Shown here: piece after piece, positions 22,005 through 38,616 of the stretch
Layout: each line of letters starts with the position of its first letter
How positions within the stretch are numbered: position 1 is the first letter of the stretch
Source of the DNA: Pseudophaeomoniella oleicola
Lineage: Eukaryota > Ascomycota > Eurotiomycetes > Phaeomoniellales > Phaeomoniellaceae
Length of the DNA: 64,000 bases
NCBI GenBank assembly: GCA_003868215.1
Contig: QWDQ01000013.1
Span: 430,004-494,003, forward strand
Direction: 5' to 3'
The notes under the pieces: generated by a model
Database searches by the model: none
Seen by the model: only the letters and a program-made list of their open reading frames with translations
What the model was told of the DNA's origin: nothing
Made by a program: the position numbers and the translations under genes

Positions 22005-25000
22005 ATGGTCTCTCGTAACGGCAACCCGACGGACGAGAATACAGTGCCGAAACAAACCGATGCTAGTCCTACCAAAGCGCGGGCTCCCAGGGGTGGCCAG
22101 AGTCCTACAAAGAGGGAGGAGAAACCAAAGGCGCAAGATGTTTCAGAGCTGAAAGACTATGTGAGTCCGAACTCCCTATGAGGTGGAACAAATAACTGAC
22201 GAGTGACATCAGCAATTGGGTGATTGTCTGGGTAAAGGTGCTTTTGGATCTGTCTACCGAGCTCTCAATTGGGGAACCGGGGAGACAGTGGCAGTAAAGC
22301 AGATCAAGCTAGCAGACCTCCCAAAGAGCGAGCTTCGGGTTATTATGGTAAACATCATACTTCCTGTCAAGACAGAAATGAGGCGAAGCTCACAGATATA
22401 TTAGCTTGAGATCGATCTACTGAAGAACCTCGATGTACGTTCTCCCACTCTTCGCCACATTTGATCCTACTGACAACAGAACAGCATCCCAATATCGTCA
22501 AGTATCACGGCTTTGTTAAGACACCAGAGACGCTGAACATTATCTTGGAGTAAGGATTCACGATCATACCCTGAGCTAGGGCTGACGGCTTCACAGATAC
22601 TGTGAAAATGGCTCGCTTCACTCAATTTCCAAGAACTTTGGACGCTTTCCAGAGAATCTGGTGGCATTGTATATGTCACAAGTGCTGCATGGTCTCCTTT
22701 ATCTTCATGAACAGGGTGTTATACACCGAGATATCAAAGGCGCTAATATCCTTACCACGAAGCAAGGTTTAGTCAAGCTGGCGGATTTTGGGGTTGCCAG
22801 TCGGACCACTGGCCTCCATGAGGGCAGCGTGGTTGGTACTCCGTACTGGATGGCTCCGGAAGTCATTGAGCTTTCGGGAGCAACGACAGCCTCGGATATT
22901 TGGAGTCTGGGCTGCACCGTTATAGAGTTGCTCGAAGGCAAGCCGCCGTATCACAAGCTTCAGCCAATGCCGGCTCTCTTCCGCATTGTCAAAGATGATC
23001 ATCCACCGCTACCCTCCGGAGCCTCACCAGCAGTCATTGACTTTTTGATGCAATGTTTTCAGAAAGATCCCAACTTACGGGTGTCTGCCCGAAAACTTTT
23101 GAAACACCCCTGGATTTCAAATGCAAAACGTGCAGGTTCGATCGTACACCAACAGTCGACCGAGTACGAAGAGGCTGTGAAGAGCGTCCAGGAATGGAAC
23201 GAAGCACTGAAATCACCAGATGCGGGATCCACAAGAAAGACAGCCAGGCTATCTGCTTCCAGTCCCATCCCCCCAAGTCGAGATTCATATCCCCCTCTGC
23301 GAACACCTGCTAAATCTTCTTTCCCCCCACCACTCACTTTGGATACAGCAGATAAGTATCGCTCACCAGAAGGAGAAACCGATGACAATTGGGACAACGA
23401 TTTCGCTTCGGCTATCTCGCCTAGCGCGCTGCATTTACCTCAGCTTCGGCCGCTGGACCATTTCGGTGGCATGCTATCCTCGGAGAAGCTGAAGACTTTC
23501 GCCGCGCTCTCGGGAGTAGCGGAGCACCCAGACTATTATCAAGACACCGAGAACGAAATGACTCTACGAAGTCCCATTACTATAGAAGAGCATGAGGATT
23601 TTCAAACGGTGAGACCTTTGTCCGCCAAGAAGAACGAGGAATCGAAGAACACAAAAAAGAAATCCGAGCCCAAGGCTAGACGGAAGTCATCCCTCCCGTC
23701 AGCACGCCAGGCCACAAATCTAGCCAAAAGTCGACCACCTCAGGGTAAACCTGCTAGTCAACTGCCACCCCATCGATTGTACCGAGAAAATTCAGTTGAA
23801 GATTACTCAGATATCATAGCAGCGAACGAAAATGAACTTGACAGGAAGCTTGCTGGAATTACCCTTGACGATGAACCATCCATGATACTAGAATCTCCCA
23901 GTGTCACAGACCTCATGAGATCCATGCGTCCAGAGAACACTATCGGGAGCTATCGAAGGCAGTCGGGCCCAAAACGGACGCTTTCAATGAGGAGGACAAG
24001 GTCTTCTGTCGAGATTCAAAAATTTGCTGAGAACGAGGCAGATGAAGACTTCTCAGATGTGTTTGCGGACGGCATTAAGGTCCTGGAAAAGCCCCAAAGC
24101 GACGAGGGCTCTCCTCCAGGGACATTGATGTTGAATTCAAAGGTTTCCGTAAACTCTTGGCTAGGTGACGGGAATGAAGATGATGAAGACGATCCATTCG
24201 CACAGTTAGAAGAGAACATGGCAGAGATAGATTTGGAAACCAATATCGCAAGAGACAGACAGGCTAGGCTTAGGTCCGACGTGGAGAACCTGGTAGGGCA
24301 GCTCAAAGTCTCGCAAGATGATGAGGTACTACTGCAGATATCCGAGGATCTCATGAACATATTCGCGGTCTTCCAAGATACAAAGGCCGTGATCATATCT
24401 GCTCATGGTCTCCTACCAATTCTTGAGATCTTGGAAACGTGCATACGGCTGGATATCATTCTGAATCTCTTAAAGATCATCAACGCCATCATCTTCAACG
24501 ATACCGAAGTACAAGAAAATTTATGCTTTGTTGGCGGTATACCAAAGATCAACAAGTTCGCATCTAAGCGGTTTCCGCGAGAGATCCGGCTTGAAGCCGC
24601 TGCATTCGTTCGCCAAATGTATCAGACCTCAACTCTGACTCTGCAGATGTTCGTCAGCGCTGGTGGTTTAACAATCCTCGTGGATTTTTTGGAAGATGAC
24701 TACGACGATGACAGGGAACTTGTCCTTATTGGCGTCAATGGGATTTGGAGTGTCTTTGAGCTCCAAGGCTCGACTCCAAAGAACGACTTCTGCCGAATAT
24801 TGTCTCGGAATTCTGTGCTCGACCCGCTCTCTCTCGTCTTAAGCCGCGTCTTAACTGAGCCTAGCGAGAATGGAGAGCAGCGAGAACTGGCAGAGCTATG
24901 TGAAGCACGGATTGCGAATATTTTTTTCATATTCTCGCAGGCCGAGAATTATGTTAAAGAGCTTGTTGCTGATCGAACAGTGCTCCATAGGGTCCTCAGG

Positions 25001-26572
25001 GATCTAAAAAAGATGTCTCCTCAAAACCAAATCACGATGTTGAAATTCATAAAGAATCTTTCAATGCTTACGACGACTTTGGACGTACTACACAACTCAA
25101 ACGCGATCGATGTCCTAACCGAACTGCTAGGATCCAGTATGCAGAAGCCACATTTTAGAGAGCTATCCAATCAGATACTCAATACCCTATACAACCTGTG
25201 CCGTCTCTCAAAAAGAAGGCAGGAAGATGCCGCTCTTGACGGCATCATACCACTTTTAATCAAAATTGTTCAGCAAGAGAGACCGTTGAAGGAGTTCGCC
25301 CTGCCAATACTTTGTGACATGGCTCATTCTAGCAAGGCTGCCCGGAGGGAGCTATGGCGTCATAAAGGGCTTGCATTCTATATCAGTCTTCTCTCGGATC
25401 CATACTGGCAAGTCACAGCGTTGGATGCCATCTTCACATGGTAAGTCAATTGCTCTACTCCTTTCATGGTTAGTGCTCACTATTACAGGCTCCAAGAAGA
25501 AACTTCGCGCGTGCAGGATGCATTGCTGGAGAATCAACGATTTACAACAGCAATATGCGCCTCCTTCACGACTTCGAAGTCCCATTCCTTTGAGAACCTC
25601 CTTGATCCACTTCAGAAGTTATTGCGATTGTCACCGGCTATTGCTGCCTCGATGGCACGACCTGATTTGTTTGAGCGCATTGGGCAAAAGTTGAATCACA
25701 ACAAACCTGCAATTCGTCTCAACCTCTTGAGGATTGTTCGGTCAATATGTGATGCCTCTGAAGAACAAGGTGCTCTCCTGATCAAGTTTGGTTTGCTTGA
25801 GGTTATACGCGACCTCGAAATCAATGATCCTGCAGTCCTCGTGCGTAATATGGCACAGGAACTGGTGAAGTCTTGCGAGGATAGTGAAGACCTAATCAGC
25901 AATGCGAGTAGCTTGAGCGGTGGCCCCAGTGGAGGGAAGAAGAGGAGTGCTTTGAGAAGGACGAGCACAACCACAACGCCACCGCACCTTCTCGAAAGAC
26001 AGATGAGTATCCCAGGTTCACCCAGGATCAGCACAGGTTGGGAGGCAAGAGAGATTTTCGATCGCGACGGTACAGTGTATTATGACCGTCCAGACAGAGT
26101 CATTCAGACTCCTCGGCGGACACGGACAAGCATGATGGGTACCTCCTCTTATGGCTTACGACCAGGAAGTCGTGATGCTTCGAGTAATCGGCCTGTAGCC
26201 GGTTTTCAAATACCCTCTGCGCCAGCATCTCCGGCATTCGGCAGGCCTTCCACGCGCAACAATGTCAGTTCTACGGGTACTCCGAACAGCGATGTCACAA
26301 GCGTAAGGAGTAGGCTTCCACGGACATCAAGCACTGCCAGTAAACCTCCAAGGCAACAACCACTCCGATCTGAGTCCAACTTGTCAAATCTAGCAGGTCA
26401 GACGGGTGCCATGCCTAGAGTCAGTGTCGTCGGCTCTAGGTTGAACCGAGATAGATTATATGAAGGTCGGAAGGACAGTGTATCGTCTGTTACTCCGGAG
26501 ATCAATCAGCCAAGACGTGCCACTAGACGGCAGACATCAGGAAGCGAGAATAGGGGTCAATGGTCGTCGTAA
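22005..26572 (+). CDS. sepH: Septation protein kinase SepH/Cdc7 (septation initiation network)
   Basis: Six exons, 22005-22160, 22213-22347, 22405-22434, 22485-22549, 22597-25440 and 25489-26572, join in frame to 1437 residues. The 30-nt third exon encodes LEIDLLKNLD. After a ~52-residue disordered leader comes a Ser/Thr kinase domain: GKGAFGSVY glycine loop, VAVKQIK lysine, HRDIKGANIL catalytic loop, ADFGVAS and APEV. A long disordered region follows, then a C-terminal armadillo-like helical domain (LLPILEILETCIRLDIIL, AAAFVRQMYQTSTL). This layout matches Aspergillus nidulans SepH and fission yeast Cdc7, the kinase bound by the GTPase Spg1 at spindle poles that starts septum formation. The C-terminus is Ser/Arg-rich. 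All key kinase residues are present. Confidence 0.93.
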
Positions 26573-29380: not shown

Positions 29381-32300
29381 ATGAGAAGGTTCAAGCAGAA
29401 GTGGTTTCAGAGGAGATCCGAATCCTTGAATCAGGTCAACGACACATCGGTATGTATACGTTCACCGAATTGTTCCCCAATCTCTGATCGAGGGATTATA
29501 ATTAATGTGAACGTCAGCATGTGTCGGATGAAACCACAATCGGCCAACTATCGCCTTCAGCTTCCCAAGTCTCTGTAAATGATCCCGATCCAGATGCAGA
29601 TTATGGTCTAGACACATTGTGGCCTCTCGCAGATGATGCACCATCTCAAGGGCGCCATCCCATTGATATTGTCGCAGTACACGGTTTGGGTGGACACAAA
29701 GTGCGCACCTGGACGTCTAGAAGAGGTGGTAGTCCACAGTCCGAGGTGCTGTGGTTGAAAGAGTTTCTCCCACAAGATTTGGATGGGGCCCGTGTCTTCA
29801 CATATGGATATGATGCTTCACATTCGTTCAGTCGCTCAGTCCTGGGGATACGAGATGCAGCGCGGAACCTATGTTCTCATTTGCTCAATGTCATAGAGGT
29901 TAGAACAGATGCTTGCTAGACAAATAATGGCTGACACTTGCATCCACAGGATCCTAGACGTCCATTGGTTTTTGTTTGCCATAGTCTTGGTGGACTTGTC
30001 GTCAAGCAGGTAAGACCTCCCACATGTCTTTTGTCGACGTTGACCGACTCTGTGGGCATGCAATGATATTGGCAAATGAAGACAGTGCACTGGCACCAAT
30101 CCTGACTTCAACGCGTATCATTGCTTTCTTGGGGACGCCTCATCGGGGCAGTCATGTCGCGTCAGCCCTGTTACCGCTCTCGAAACTAGGAAATACAATC
30201 GGCCAGGTTACTTTGACATCAGCTTTCTTGGGCTCCTTCCGGAGTGATCTCTTGAGCGTGTTGAAGCGAGATTCCGGTAAACTCGACGAGCTGAACGAAT
30301 CGTTTCGTGAACGCGCAAAAGCAATGACTATTCTGACCTTCTATGAATCAAAAAGCCTTGCAGGCCATATGGTAAGGCACCGTCGTCCTTCATTGTCTCT
30401 CTAATTATCTTCAAAGGTGGTCGCACCTAGCTCAGCTAAGCTATATCTTCCTAACGAGAACTTTTTTGCTCTGAATGCCGACCATATATCGATGTGCCGC
30501 TTCTCGTCGCCGAAAGATCCAAATTACGTGTTGTTTTTGGGCGAATTGAGACGCGCTATCCGAGACCTCGACATCAGTAGTCATGACCGTTGTGCGTTAC
30601 ACGACCTGCGAGAAATTTGACTGATGCGCTAAATGCTTTTTTGGCCAGCGTTCACCGAGTCCGAGAGTAACTACGTAGCGAATTTTACTTCGCAGCCTAC
30701 TATTGATATCGCCGATCGGGTGCAAGGCACTTGCGAATGGCCGTTTTCAACGTCGGACTATAAGCTTTGGCATCAATATAAGCACTCGGCCATACTGTGG
30801 CTTACTGGAGAGGCTGGCACTGGAAAGACGATATTGGCCAATTATCTGATTGAATCACTGAGAAGTGAGACACAGACTAAAGCGACCATCACCACGAATG
30901 ACTTTACCGTCTGCTTCTTCTTCTGCTCTCGAGATCTAGCTTCGCACAAAGACGTGCGATATCTGTTAAAAAGCCTTATTTACCAGCTACTGACTGAGAG
31001 AAAAGATGTAATTCGTGATGTCAGATCAGCGTATCACATGTCAAGAAGAGTCCAAGAGTACTCATTTGAGTCGCTTTGGAAAGTCTTCGAGCTCTGTCTT
31101 TCGATCATGTCATATCGCTGTGTATACATCATCATCGATGGTCTTGACGAGTGCGATGAGCGGCCGAGATTCGATTTACTATCCAAAATAAGCGAGACGA
31201 CGATTGCTTGGAGTCAAAGTCACAGAAAGGCGTCGCGGCAGCTTAAGTTCGCCATTAGTGGCCAACCATTTATCCGTCGAGTCAAGGCTGTCCATCAGTC
31301 AAACCCTCAGCAATATCATATCGGCCTCGAAGGGAGGCCACAAGGCATGAATGCAGATATATCTCGCTTCATAGAGTACAAGGTCGACGAAATGATTTTC
31401 TATGGCATCTGCTCACAGTCAGGTGGCGAATTCTTGAAGTGGAAACTGTCCCAATTTGCCGAGAATTCATTTCTATGGCTGACCGTAGTTCTGGATAAGA
31501 TCAAAGCTAGCCTGGACTATAGCAACATTGGTTTGCAGAGAATGTTGGATGAGGTGCCATTGACCCTCAGAGAAGCCTATGAGCGTTATCTCCCGGAGGT
31601 CTCCCAGAACAATGTAGCACGGCTAAGGGATTACCTTCATCTTCTTACTGGTTGCATGAGAAACCTCTCATTGGCGGAAGTAGACATCCTCTCAAATGTC
31701 CAAGAACAGCGCCTGGAGTCTTTGCTGACCATAGAAGATGAATCAGTTGTCAAAAGCAGTATCCGTCGAGCGATTGGCCCTCTTGTCAAATTCTCGGGAA
31801 ACAATGTCGCCTTCATACATTCTTCTGTCAGAAGGTTCTTCGAGGACCTTGGTAATGAGCCGCACCACTCATTGCACGCTACTCATGGTATTCACCTTAG
31901 TGACTCTCATGCAACATTGGCAGCATCCTGCATCCTCTACTTGCATAGCAAGGAATTCGCGAAAGATGTCTTCGAAGAAGATAGCATTCGCAACCTCAGT
32001 CCTGCATCTACGACCGGTCCGACGGATGATATACCCGAATTTTATGACATGTTCAATCTCGAGGATGTCTCATTTTTGCACGAGAGTAAGATGTGGTCGG
32101 ACGAGAAGTGTGCCATGGTCCAATCCAAGTACCGTGCTTTTGACTATTGTGCCAGATATTGGACACACCACTTTTGTCGTTGTGAAGATCAACTTGCTGA
32201 TGTCATCGGGCAAATGGCCTTGAGACTTCTCGACTGCAGCAATCCTTCATCAAAGAATTGGTATTCTTACAAGTACCATCTTTATCCCGATCAGCTACCC

Positions 32301-33527
32301 TTACCGGAGGAAGCTCATCCTGTTATCCTTGCAGCTCTCTTCGGTCATGCGCGGAGTCTTGAAGCGCTTCTCAAGCAGCACCCATACGTCACTGCGAAGC
32401 CAATCTTTCAAAAAGCTCTCTTTTGGGCAGTTGCTAAGGATCACACTCGCATACTAAATATCTTATTTGAGCATGGCATTCGGCCAGAATCCCCTACTCG
32501 TGGGGCAGATCTCACGACGATGGCTATCCGAGGAGGTTTTTTGGACATCTGCAACATTTTGCTAAATCTCTTTAGCGTCGATCCAAACGGCTCTAATTAT
32601 GACGGTTGGCCCCTTTTATCAATCGCGGCAGGAGAGGATCAACTAGAAATACTGCGAGTTTTGCTAGGCCAGGAATCAATCCGTCCAAACGAAGGTAGCA
32701 GAATTGGACACACGGCATTGATAGAAGCTTCAAGGACTGGATCAATGAATTGTCTAGATGAACTCTTGGCGGACGCCCGGTCAGATGTGACCGCTGTTGA
32801 CACCAAAGGCCGTACGCCACTCATGCACGCTGCGATAGCTGGTATTGATCCAGCAGTAAAGGCTCTCTTGCGGCTCTCAAAACCTCAAGTCCATATCCGA
32901 GATTATTCTGGGCGCACAGCATTATCTTATGCGGCACAACATGGAGATCTAGCCATCGCAAAACGTCTGCTTCGAGCGGACGCTGACATAACAGTCAAGG
33001 ACAACGACGGACGAAACGCCATTTCGTGGGCTGCAGAGAGTGCGAAAGCAAGCAGAAGTCCAGATAATGGTCAGACCACGCTAGAGATTCTAGTACGATG
33101 GTGTCCTGCTGCTGTTGACGACCAGGATGATAATGGGTGGTCTCCTCTAGCTTGGGCTCTTAACCCACCGGGATATTTGGAGTCTATTCAGACTTTGATT
33201 GAAATAGGAAGAGCAGATCCGAATCGACGTGATAAGACCTATGGTCGCTCAATACTAGCATGGGCATGTAGCTTTGGTTATATAGATATAGTGACATATC
33301 TTCTCAGCATTCCAGAAGTAGATAGAAATCTTGCGGATTTCGATGAGCGGACGCCTCTGTCATATGCTGCGGGCAATGGTCAAGCCGATATCGTCAACTT
33401 GATGTTGGAAGAAGGACGTTCGGACCTCAAGAAGCAGGATAAACGAGGTCGTAGTGCAGCGGATTGGGCGGCATTAGGTTCGTTTGTAGAGATCGTGCAG
33501 GTGTTAGAAGACTACCCGGGCGTTTGA
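29381..33527 (+). CDS. NLR-like protein: SesB-type alpha/beta hydrolase, NACHT ATPase, ankyrin repeats
   Basis: Six exons are proposed: 29381-29449, 29518-29898, 29950-30009, 30060-30371, 30417-30591 and 30649-33527, totalling 1291 residues. Residues ~70-270 form an alpha/beta hydrolase of the SERAC1/SesB type (IDIVAVHGLGGH; nucleophile elbow CHSLGG with Ser162; FLGTPHRGSH). A NACHT domain follows with Walker A GEAGTGKT (386-393) and Walker B IIDGLDECD (~494-502). Ankyrin repeats run from ~887 to the end (GRTPLMHAAIAG, GRTALSYAAQHG, ERTPLSYAAGNG). This layout is that of fungal NLR-type non-self recognition proteins. Every junction keeps frame, but the intron at 30010-30059 ends in AT, not AG. 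The allele may thus be non-functional. An alternative start is 29294. Confidence 0.82.
30010..30059 (+). other. Intron with apparently lost splice acceptor
   Basis: The donor GTAAGA follows VVKQ in the hydrolase domain, and the next family-like residues (AMILANED) start at 30060. That implies a 50-bp intron, a normal size here, with a TTGACCGAC branch-like site. Its last bases read GGGCAT, so the acceptor AG is missing. Reading through gives a TGA at 30064-30066. The nearest AGs downstream (30080-30081, 30084-30085) are out of frame with this donor. Confidence 0.65.
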
Positions 33528-33746: not shown

Positions 33747-34577
33747 ATGAGGTTCGTCAGACCTTTTCGAACACAATAATATTATCCAAATTCATATTTG
33801 ATAGAGTTGACAAGTCTATTCGCTTTGTTGGCCCACCGAACGCGGGTCAGAGAACAATCATCGGCCAGATCCTGTACCAAGTGAGGCCGTGTAATCCTTC
33901 AGCGTGACTTCGCTAATCATCTTGTGTATTGGCAGCTCAATGGCGTTGACCTTGAATTGCTGCAGGTCTTCGAAAAGTCTGGCGAAAACCGATATGACCG
34001 TGTTTTGCCTATCATGAAAGAGCTTGGTAAAAGGCCAACGTTCGAGACACCTGCATACGACGTGGGTGTTGGTAATGCATCTCAATCATTCGTACATCAT
34101 AGGATACTAACGTTTACAGTTCAAGGGACGGATGGAGATCCGGTTGATGTCTTGATCTTGGTGGTATCTCCAGAGACGGTAACCGGAATCTCAGAAGTGC
34201 TGCCGCAGCCTTCAGGCATCAGGAACATTATCTGCGTCGTTACCAAGATGTCAGGAGTCTCCCTCTCTACGAAGGCTTCCCTTCTAACGTGTTGTAGGGA
34301 TATCGCAGAATGGAAACAGGATGTGTTTGAAACCGCTAGATCTCAAGTATCAACTGCTCTGCACGAGAAGGGGTTTACCCCTACATAGTATGTCTTCTGA
34401 TGTATCCTCCAATGACGTTCGACCTACTCACGCGTGCGAAGCAACTTCATCCCCACGAACGGTCTTACCGGGGATAATATACTGGTACCATCGAGAAACA
34501 GTCCATGGTTCCGCTCTTCGGGGGAAGGAAAGGACACGTTCGTTTCCATCCTCGACTTCGCGTTGGGAGGAGACTAG
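33747..34577 (+). CDS. Degenerate eEF1A-like G domain (pseudo-GTPase)
   Basis: Five exons, 33747-33751, 33805-33880, 33936-34071, 34120-34387 and 34442-34577, join in frame to 206 residues. The intron at 34072-34119 has a perfect TACTAAC branch site. The product follows eEF1A domain 1 segment by segment: IRFVGPPNAGQRTIIGQILY (P-loop region), LNGVDLELLQVFEK, FETPAYDV, VQGTDGDPVDVLILVVS, GIRNIICVVTKMSG, and FIPTNGLTGDNILVPSRNSP before the domain 2 boundary. The P-loop has Gln where Lys is required, the RERGITID and DAPGHRD switch regions are absent, and NKMD is TKMS. Domains 2 and 3 are missing. It cannot bind GTP normally or act in translation. The start exon is only 5 nt and less certain. It lies 219 bp downstream of the NLR-like gene. 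Confidence 0.68.
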
Positions 34578-35466: not shown

Positions 35467-38400
35467 ATGGCGACGGGGTCGAGAAACATACTTCTGTTGC
35501 CTGCAGAAATCCAAGCGCATATACAGTCTTCCATAACAATCACAACATTGAACGACGTCGTCATCGAGCTTGTCAAAAACGCGTTGGATGCCGAGGCAAC
35601 TGTGATTAGAGTAGTGATTGATGGTACTAAGAATGCTTGTGAAATCGAGGACAATGGCTGTGGGATTCCGAAGGCCGATTTCGAGGAAGAAGGTGGGCTT
35701 GGACGACGGTTCCGTGAGTAAGCTCTGCCCCTGTACATTTCTTTTCGCTGATACGAGATAGACACCTCTAAGTTTGCCTCTCAGAAACCTGTTCATGGTA
35801 GTCAGGGCCAATTTCTCGCTTCTCTCGCAGCGCTTTCGTTGCTTTCTATTGTTTCTAAAACTGCGCATGAGCACGTAGAAAGCCGTCTCATTCTACATCG
35901 ATCGCGAACAATCCAGCGCCAGACACGCCATGCCGGAGCACAAGGAGTTCGAATACAAAACCAGGGCACCTTCGTCTCAGTGTACGATCTATTCGGCAAT
36001 CTGCCGGTTCGGACAAAGGAGAGAGCGCTCAGAGGCCAAAGCAGGGAGAAGCACATGAGAGATATCGAAAGTCTGCGTCAGCGCAGCCTAGCCCTTCTAC
36101 TAGCGTGGAGGTCACCTGTCAAACTGCAACTCTTTGACAAACAATCTGAGCAGAATATCAATCTTCGGCTCAAGTATCCAGAATTGCAAAGCAATAACAG
36201 ACGGCCGCGGGTCCTAGGGAGTTGTTTCAACGTTGGCACAGTCATTGCTCTCATTCGACAAGCATACAGTATATCTGCTATCGACGAGGAATCATGGGTT
36301 ACAATTTCTGCTCGTACATTGCGATTCCAGGCGAGAGCCGCACTTTGCCTCCAGCCAATGCCTAGTAAACATCTACAATTCATTTCGGTCGGCATCAAGC
36401 CTGTGGATCGGAGTGGCGTGCATAATATCCTTTTCGATGAAATCAATCGCATCTTTTCAAATTCGGCATTTGGTAGTCATGACTCGGAGCTGGACGTTGA
36501 CCGTCTAGATAGTAGTCGCAATCATACTGAAGAACAACATCAGGCTGTTAATTTCAGCAAAGGTCGGGTTCGAGAACAGGCCCGTAGTCCTGACCGCTTT
36601 CCGATGTTTTACATCCGCATAGATACTATATTTGAAGGCGAAGGGCATGACATTGAAGAGTTGAAACCTCATCAGGCCGACCGGGTTATCGAAGAAATAC
36701 TAGAAGTTCTAAGGCCATTGTTGTGGCAGTTCTTGGATCAGCATGGCTTCCAACCGGATAAACCACGCCGAAACCACCATCATGATCTACGCGTTCGAAA
36801 GAATCGAAGAGTTCAAGGGCAAGAGTCGGTACATGATGCCAGAACCGGGTTTGCTGTTCAAGGCTCGACGCAGTCGGATGGGGAGCCGGTCCCCCAGAAA
36901 ATTGCTCTTCGTCCAAACAAGCCTTCGAGGACGGCTTTTGCAGATTGGTCGCGGAGTAAGAGTAGCAGCAGAGAATGTTTGAATATGCTCGGATCTGTTC
37001 TACCTCAGCAGATAAGAAGCTGTGATAACTCGAGTAACGCCGAGGCATTGCAGAATGGCGAAAGTGATACTTTGACGGCGGAGCTCGTCACTTATGGCAA
37101 TGCGATAAGCCGAAGCCCTTCATCTAACAATGAACCTACATCGTCGGATGGCTTATCTAGGAACGGTGTCTTACCAGAAGCTGTATCAGATTTCGTAGCG
37201 TGTGACACCCACTCTGGTTGTCAACATTGTTCAGGGCTCCCGTTTGATGTCCATGGCTCTCGCCAAGCAGATGCACTCGACCAGTCAATTGCTTGGAAAG
37301 ACCCTTCCACAGGAGAGGTCGTTCGTATCAATGCCAGAACGGGCATGGTCTTTCGGGATGAGGAGCGAGGAGATGGCAAGTCCCAGTTGAAGCGACCTCG
37401 GTTCAGACACAGTCTTGCACGTCGTGGATCCGTGAGTAGCCCCAGAGAGGTTGCTATCAGTGAGTCTGATGGCAGCGGAAGTTCGTGGTTGAACGAAGTT
37501 CTTCAAGGATGGAAGAACCCTGTATTTGAGCAGGCGAAGGAAAGGATTCCTTCGATATTCAATGACTTTGCGGAAACGGGGCTTAATGATCGCTCTAATG
37601 CCGCCAGTGATCACAGGGTTTTGGAAGCGCAAGAGGTGCTCTCGCGACTGAGTAGGAAAGCTCTCGCAGCGGCAGATGTCATTGGTCAGGTCGACCGCAA
37701 GTTCATACTCGTTTCTATGTCGCCAGACGAGCAAACAGAAGCGTCCATATGTCCTGCTGTGAAGATTATCGTCCTCATTGACCAACACGCCGCAGACGAA
37801 CGATGTCGTGTGGAGCAACTCCTTGAAGAACTTTGCGATCCATCACGCTCTGACAACGTGGAAGAATGGAAGCCCATTGGATTTGAGATCACAGAAGAAG
37901 AGGCGAGTTTGTTTGAAAGAGACAGTCAGCACTTTGCTTCTTGGAACATCAAGTACAAGATCAAGCAGACGAAGGCTAAAGCGATACCAGCTGCTTCCAG
38001 ACCATCTTCATCTGCGTCAAGAAACTCGATTACAGATACTTCTCGGGCTTTATTACTCGTCGAGACTCTCCCCTCGATAATCTCAGAGCGATGCCGCACA
38101 GATCCAAAAGTCCTAATTGACATGCTACGGACAGAAGTCTGGGCGAGAACAGAGAACTCCTTCCATACGCCTCTTACTCAACCTCAATCCCAGACAAATG
38201 CCACCCAGGACTCTTTTCCAATTTGGCTGCACCGCCTCTCCTCCATCCCGCGCTCCCTTCTTGACCTGATAAACTCTCGAGCCTGCCGATCAGCCATCAT
38301 GTTCAACGACGAGCTGACGCGCGAAGAGTGCCAGCAGCTCGTGCGCAGATTGGCACGCTGCAAATTCCCCTTCGTCTGCGCCCACGGCCGGAAGAGTTGC

Positions 38401-38616
38401 GTCCCTATCCTGTCGTTGGCGGCGGCGGCCGGATCATCATCCGGTGGAGCCCGGGGGGCTTTGAATGGCGAGGGCCGCCGTAGTGATGATGGCATGGCTA
38501 CCACGGGGTTTCTGAGCGGCGGCGGTGGCGATCGCGTAGAACACGATGAAGGTACTGAGGATGGAGGCGCTTGGACGAAGTGGATGGACGGGAGAAAGCA
38601 AGGTGGTGTTGAATGA
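35467..38616 (+). CDS. MLH3: DNA mismatch repair / meiotic endonuclease MutL homologue MLH3
   Basis: Exons at 35467-35713 and 35762-38616 (48-bp intron, GTGAGT..GATAG) give 1033 residues. The N-terminal GHKL ATPase has ITITTLNDVVIELVKNALDA with the catalytic Glu and the Asn for Mg2+, and EDNGCGIPKADF. The usual GFRGEAL lid motif reads GSQGQFL here. The C-terminal domain carries the metal-binding endonuclease motif DQHAADERCRVE (from residue 756), then ACRSAIMFNDEL and CAHGRKSCVPIL near the end. A long disordered linker lies between. Mlh3 pairs with Mlh1 to process meiotic crossovers and some mismatches. The C-terminal ~60 residues after VPIL form an odd Gly-rich acidic tail. PMS1/PMS2 is less likely given the ITITTLNDVV start. 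Confidence 0.9.

Follow-up and report, generated by a model that had tools for sequence, protein, structure and literature searches.

Introduction

Since eEF1A changes very slowly, a coding copy that has shed its phosphate-binding and switch machinery and kept its core would be instructive, marking the passage from a translation factor to a pure binding module. Pseudo-GTPases are already a known kind of protein, as are translational-GTPase relatives such as Ski7. The latter, which is related to Hbs1 and occurs in budding yeast, may bind GTP without hydrolysing it, according to a passage of PMC4509514. Defective nucleotide sites are also described, in excerpts of the respective papers, for the GTPase-like pseudoGTPase domains of p190RhoGAP (PMC5593906) and for degenerate sporulation septins, which evolve fast (PMC10731463). 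Among fungal NLRs, some act with a protein from an adjacent gene, as in the NWD2/HET-S type (in part of PMC5485727), and for NLRs of the Sordariales a kinase duplicated from the host has been put forward as an integrated decoy (in part of PMC12258605).

Here we describe a gene from Pseudophaeomoniella oleicola, located in a window of 64,000 nucleotides (the whole stretch of DNA that was analysed), that resembles each of these in some respects. It shares with the eEF1A G domain the order of the whole domain, the motifs FEK, FETPxY, KMD and GDN..PW and the position of intron 1, and differs from it in an identity of 29% and in being without the P-loop Lys, switch I, DxPGH and domains 2-3. Like Ski7, it is a fungal relative of the translational GTPases; unlike Ski7, which in the passage cited binds GTP and keeps the domain arrangement of an active factor (PMC4509514), the protein encoded here has neither domains 2-3 nor the parts that bind phosphate and form the switches. 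Its defective nucleotide site is shared with the p190RhoGAP domains and the septins, but going by those excerpts they belong to other GTPase families, whereas this is a stand-alone translation-factor domain. The gene adjoins a NACHT receptor, as in the NWD2/HET-S type pairs described in part of PMC5485727, and would present a duplicated host domain as putative bait, as do the putative integrated PKinase decoys described in part of PMC12258605; in contrast to these fungal NLR partner and decoy systems, the domain stands apart from the NLR, which has a hydrolase domain of its own. We regard it as a real, unusual gene, so far seen in a single fungus, that is a candidate for a pseudo-GTPase derived from eEF1A and has a suggestive neighbour of the immune-receptor type.

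Structure of the eEF1A-like gene

The gene lies on the + strand, with its ATG at 33747 and its stop at 34577, and encodes 190 residues in six exons separated by five introns of 48-55 nt:

33747..33751, + strand: exon 1, ATGAG with the start codon; a phase 2 intron follows 5 nt past the ATG
33752..33804, + strand: intron 1, 53 nt, gttcgt..tag, without a CTAAY branch motif
33805..33880, + strand: exon 2, first strand and degenerate P-loop GPPNAGQRT
33881..33935, + strand: intron 2, 55 nt, branch GCTAAT
33936..34071, + strand: exon 3, FEK motif, shortened switch I region, FETPAYDV
34072..34119, + strand: intron 3, 48 nt, TACTAAC, stop-free in frame
34120..34249, + strand: exon 4, running to G4 (VVTKM/D, the slash marking the junction)
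34250..34297, + strand: intron 4, 48 nt, stop-free in frame, TTCTAAC 10 nt from the intron end
34298..34387, + strand: exon 5, the DIAEWKQDVFETARSQVSTALHEKGFTP region past G4
34388..34441, + strand: intron 5, 54 nt, gtatgt..aag, without a CTAAY branch motif
34442..34577, + strand: exon 6, G5 region NGLTGDNIL, NSPWF, end of the G domain, stop codon

A CTAAY motif was present 6-32 nt upstream of the AG in three of the five introns, compared with 215 of the 8430 AG sites in the window (P = 1.6e-4), both the motif and the range having been picked after the introns had already been inspected. Introns 1 and 5 are the weakest junctions of the model; the claim of five intact junctions made in an initial annotation is thus backed by a branch motif at three introns but not at these two.

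The same annotation had joined five exons into a product of 206 residues, which most likely corresponds to the retention of intron 4. With this intron spliced, the product scored 57.4 bits against the EF-1_alpha profile (TIGR00483), compared with 40.2 bits when it was retained, and VVTKMDIAEW aligned without gaps to VAINKMDTTKW of the genome's own eEF1A. Because intron 4 is spliced out, G4 reads TKMD, replacing the earlier reading of NKMD as TKMS.

Intron 3 carries TACTAAC, the perfect branch site that had been pointed out for one of the introns. Its retained form scored slightly higher than the spliced one (60.9 compared with 57.4 bits), so homology does not prove this intron and the gene may have two isoforms. 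Read in the retained frame, it gave a codon score of -3.3 bits over 15 codons, which, on this short stretch of evidence, speaks against its being coding. Because introns 3 and 4 are both 48 nt long and stop-free, exons 3-5 form one open frame whether spliced or not, and there is room for retained-intron isoforms at 34072-34119 and 34250-34297. Intron 3 sits where eEF1A has DAPGH/switch II, and may be former switch-II sequence turned intron; when it is retained, GNASQS occupies the place of DxPGH.

Similarity to eEF1A and loss of GTPase motifs

From end to end, the 190-aa product tracks the eEF1A G domain and stops where domain 1 ends, in agreement with the earlier in-frame, multi-exon reading of 33747-34577 as eEF1A domain 1 in order. 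Yeast eEF1A was the best match among solved structures (phmmer, E = 1.7e-12), and the 26 distinct sequences found among these structures at E <= 1e-3 were eEF1A/EF1A, eRF3, HBS1, Ski7 and one CysN-type protein. The profile search proposed as a check succeeded with TIGR00483 (E = 8.5e-16), at a score that did not reach the curated equivalog cut-off of 540.1 bits, but fell short with Pfam GTP_EFTU (PF00009; 20 bits, under the cut-off of 26.5), and the gene was not among the 23 matches of a genome-wide PF00009 search.

The loss of the GTPase switch was judged by the G motifs, which are established knowledge. At G1 (GxxxxGK[ST]), alignment to eEF1A confirmed that GHVDSGKST has become GPPNAGQRT, with K changed to Q and S to R. 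Without counterpart in the product are eEF1A residues 50-55, 71-78, 93-103, 119-121 and 128-135, as well as a few residues near 184, 211-214 and 220-222; with the absence of residues 71-78 the switch I Thr (G2) is gone, and with that of residues 93-103 from the spliced product so is the DxPGH of G3, which bears out the suggestion that both switch regions had been lost. G4 ([NT]KxD) persists as TKMD with intron 4 spliced, its Asp kept and T being tolerated at the first place of the motif, and at G5 (S[AG]) ISG is replaced by TNG. Domains 2 and 3 are absent, as had been proposed, the stop codon falling at the end of domain 1, and none of the nine genome matches to eEF1A residues 45-460 lay on the window's contig. 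Given these losses (P-loop, switch I Thr, DxPGH, G5 and domains 2-3), GTPase switching by the 190-aa protein appears very unlikely.

Origin of the gene

Of the nine genome matches to eEF1A residues 45-460, we take one to be eEF1A and the others to be HBS1, eRF3, a protein resembling EF-Tu and GTPases that are further removed. Identity of the eEF1A-like gene was 52/179 (29%) to the genome's own eEF1A, 52/175 to its own HBS1 and 42/177 to its own eRF3. In a maximum-likelihood tree containing the gene, these three proteins and 14 fetched EF1A rows, its branch measured 2.28 changes per site and joined the base of the eEF1A pair via a zero-length branch (support 0/48). Placements with eEF1A and with the archaeal sequences were equally likely, and those with HBS1 and eRF3 were 4.7-4.8 log-likelihood units worse, with AU values (0.085 for HBS1 and 0.106 for eRF3) that rejected neither. 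Because of the long branch, the 29% identity and the zero-length joining branch, the tree alone leaves the parent unsettled, and long-branch effects in it are likely.

The position of the first intron is a better clue to the parent than the tree. Its junction, which had been fixed before the eEF1A gene structure was compared, lies 5 nt past the ATG in both genes (ATGAG followed by gttcgt here, ATGGG followed by gtaagt in the genome's own eEF1A); two further eEF1A introns that we saw are not common to the eEF1A-like gene, and its other four are not at the eEF1A intron positions that we saw. Taken together, the sequence features suggest a very diverged translational GTPase relative, most likely an old fungal eEF1A duplicate. 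That the parent was instead HBS1, eRF3 or an older branch strikes us as improbable: the identity counts to HBS1 and eEF1A, the HBS1-like appearance of GLxGxNIL near G5, the unrejected HBS1 and eRF3 placements and, for an older branch, the equally likely archaeal placement speak for such a parent, but HBS1 and eRF3 are set back by their poorer likelihoods, by the agreement of intron 1, FEK, FETPxY and GDN..PW with eEF1A and by the first rank of eEF1A in both the PDB and NCBIfam searches.

Evidence for selection on the protein

The codon usage of the gene looks coding. Its in-frame codon score was +17.4 bits, the best of the six frames, with exons 2-6 each scoring best of three frames; 1000 base shuffles gave a mean of -22.8 and a maximum of 6.5 bits, and 61 reference segments from six long ORFs of the window, whose range takes in the score of the gene, gave a mean of 19.1 (sd 12.3, minimum -3.8). 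Hydrophobic residues occupy 48 of the 58 core columns of the family compared with 24 of the 121 other columns, and none of 20000 permutations reached 48 (maximum 35).

We then compared the gene with neutral simulations in which the genome's own eEF1A was mutated to the same identity and realigned. None of 1000 such sequences was stop-free (mean of 5.3 stops), five reached the core fraction and one matched the core-versus-other contrast, in tests favoured by an exon model that was picked to be open and by an alignment made partly by similarity. In an earlier set (n = 200), the core fraction averaged 0.689 with a maximum of 0.845, compared with 0.828 in the gene, and without realignment 2, 6 and 24 of 2000 simulated sequences were stop-free at transition biases of 1, 2 and 4, respectively. 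The stop-free frame, the codon score, the core and the neutral simulations led us to conclude that most of the divergence probably arose while the protein mattered.

Search for relatives

A direct search of the genome (26.1 Mb in 112 contigs) at E <= 10 returned six rows, namely the gene itself (four), eEF1A and HBS1, and no other copy; a first look had given four candidates. A paralogue family was also sought via weak PF00009 matches, and none of the 10 places examined among the 23 was akin to the gene; by frame reading, these ten are presumably Ras/Rab-like, GTPBP1-like, eIF5B-like and mitofusin-like.

Searches of the protein database gave 96 candidates for the whole 190-aa query, none at E <= 1e-3, and seven for residues 95-190, none at E <= 0.1; in IMG/VR, five stretches fitted a pattern and none was confirmed. 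Judged by its neighbours, the gene belongs to a filamentous ascomycete. When the RasGEF next to it was searched as a control, 787 of 7999 scored sequences matched; its best full-length matches were 62-64% identical, and the named ones among the 120 matches listed, which we take to be Eurotiomycetes, were 50-56% identical. The database thus holds fungi but seemingly no near species of this fungus, so a relative of so fast a gene would be missed. Among the titles and abstract openings sampled from the open-access literature on eEF1A, pseudoGTPases, Ski7 and Hbs1, fungal NLR decoys and mycovirus, none described such a gene.

An NLR-like gene directly upstream

Directly upstream, on the same strand, lies a putative NLR, which the initial annotation did not mention and whose stop codon precedes the eEF1A-like ATG by 219 nt:

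29518..30617, + strand: N-terminal part of the NLR, alpha/beta hydrolase; 5' end and junctions provisional
30633..33527, + strand: main exon of the NLR, with NACHT-type PF24883 (~30726-31199, E = 2.1e-35) as well as ankyrin repeats (E = 7.8e-61)

With exons joined by guess, Abhydrolase_6 and DUF676 scored just above cut-off in the N-terminal part, where the GHSLGG motif reads CHSLGG in frame; by reading, we take this domain to be SesB-like. The domain matches make the gene look like a hydrolase-NACHT-ankyrin NLR. PF24883 gave 30 matches in the genome at about 28 places, the window's included, and by itself is no proof of an NLR, since 9 of the 14 prokaryote genomes used as controls had matches as well. 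Three of these places each were seen on contigs C63, C21 and C1.

Interpretation of the locus

We put at roughly 60% the probability that the gene makes a folded, nucleotide-independent pseudo-GTPase that serves as a binding module. Such a protein would neither switch nor deliver tRNA, and would offer a static binding surface. The initial annotation had preferred a pseudo-GTPase to simple decay, a preference that gains from the open frame, codon usage, core and simulations. Decay could have come late, in a pseudogene whose protein was selected through most of its history and whose function or expression was lost recently. Nearly all GTPase motifs are gone, and neither an orthologue (protein database, IMG/VR) nor another copy in the genome was found, as such a pseudogene might lead one to expect, but the modelled frame is without a stop, its codon score is coding-like and its core is kept, and we consider a recent loss unlikely, if still worth weighing.

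A functional pseudo-GTPase need not involve the NLR, and might for example regulate partners of eEF1A, a version that overlaps with the binding-module reading and to which we give a substantial chance, somewhat short of even. If the genome has 9,000 genes, as we assumed, its roughly 28 PF24883 places would by chance have about 0.6% of all genes as neighbours; the test is moreover post hoc, and the PF24883 places need not all be NLRs. eEF1A meets many partners via domains 2-3 and switch regions, and these are missing here, which sits poorly with a regulator of its partners. In excerpts of the papers concerned, eEF1A is credited with several paralogues and many side functions (PMC4342817), in line with independence from the NLR, and partners of fungal NLRs can be adjacent genes (PMC5485727), which points the other way.

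The upstream NLR gives concrete form to the decoy idea that the initial annotation had raised in passing. As the most specific mechanism suggested by the locus, the NLR decoy was kept as our working mechanism. An intruder, such as a mycovirus or an antagonist's effector, would capture or modify the stand-alone eEF1A look-alike, and the adjoining hydrolase-NACHT-ankyrin receptor would sense this action; the nucleotide-dead G domain would then be the bait of the adjacent NLR, reporting an attack on eEF1A. We infer this mechanism from the adjacent NLR, and a single adjacency, noticed afterwards, is weak evidence for it; the NLR already has its own hydrolase domain, which counts against it, and we rate the bait role as improbable at present. 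If it held, fungal NLRs, most of whose triggers are, to our knowledge, unknown, would gain a sensing model that is concrete and open to testing, and the innate immunity of fungi would include a decoy made from a translation factor. A true integrated decoy, in which the domain would form the C-terminal end of the NLR through an intron skipping the NLR stop codon, seems very remote: the shared strand, the 219 nt between stop and ATG and a GT noticed by eye shortly before the NLR stop would allow it, but the domain starts at an ATG of its own, in a first exon of 5 nt like that of eEF1A, and no strong donor was noticed by eye.

Other features of the window

A tRNA scan of the window returned 0 genes, and none of the six tandem-repeat rows fell within the eEF1A-like gene. 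Downstream of the gene lies another, probably MLH3:

36055-38613, + strand: MutL-type mismatch repair gene, MutL_C just above cut-off; seemingly begins near 35469

Two contigs of a Desulfosporosinus MAG (DYPS01000046.1 and DYPS01000131.1) match the eEF1A of this fungus at 72-73% identity and are, given that identity, probably eukaryotic contamination of the bin. Elsewhere in the window, a 923-aa frame at 22673-25441 (+ strand) matches at its start only the second half of the protein kinase profile (profile positions 104-263), and its C-terminal part matches ARM_ARMC5 under the cut-off.
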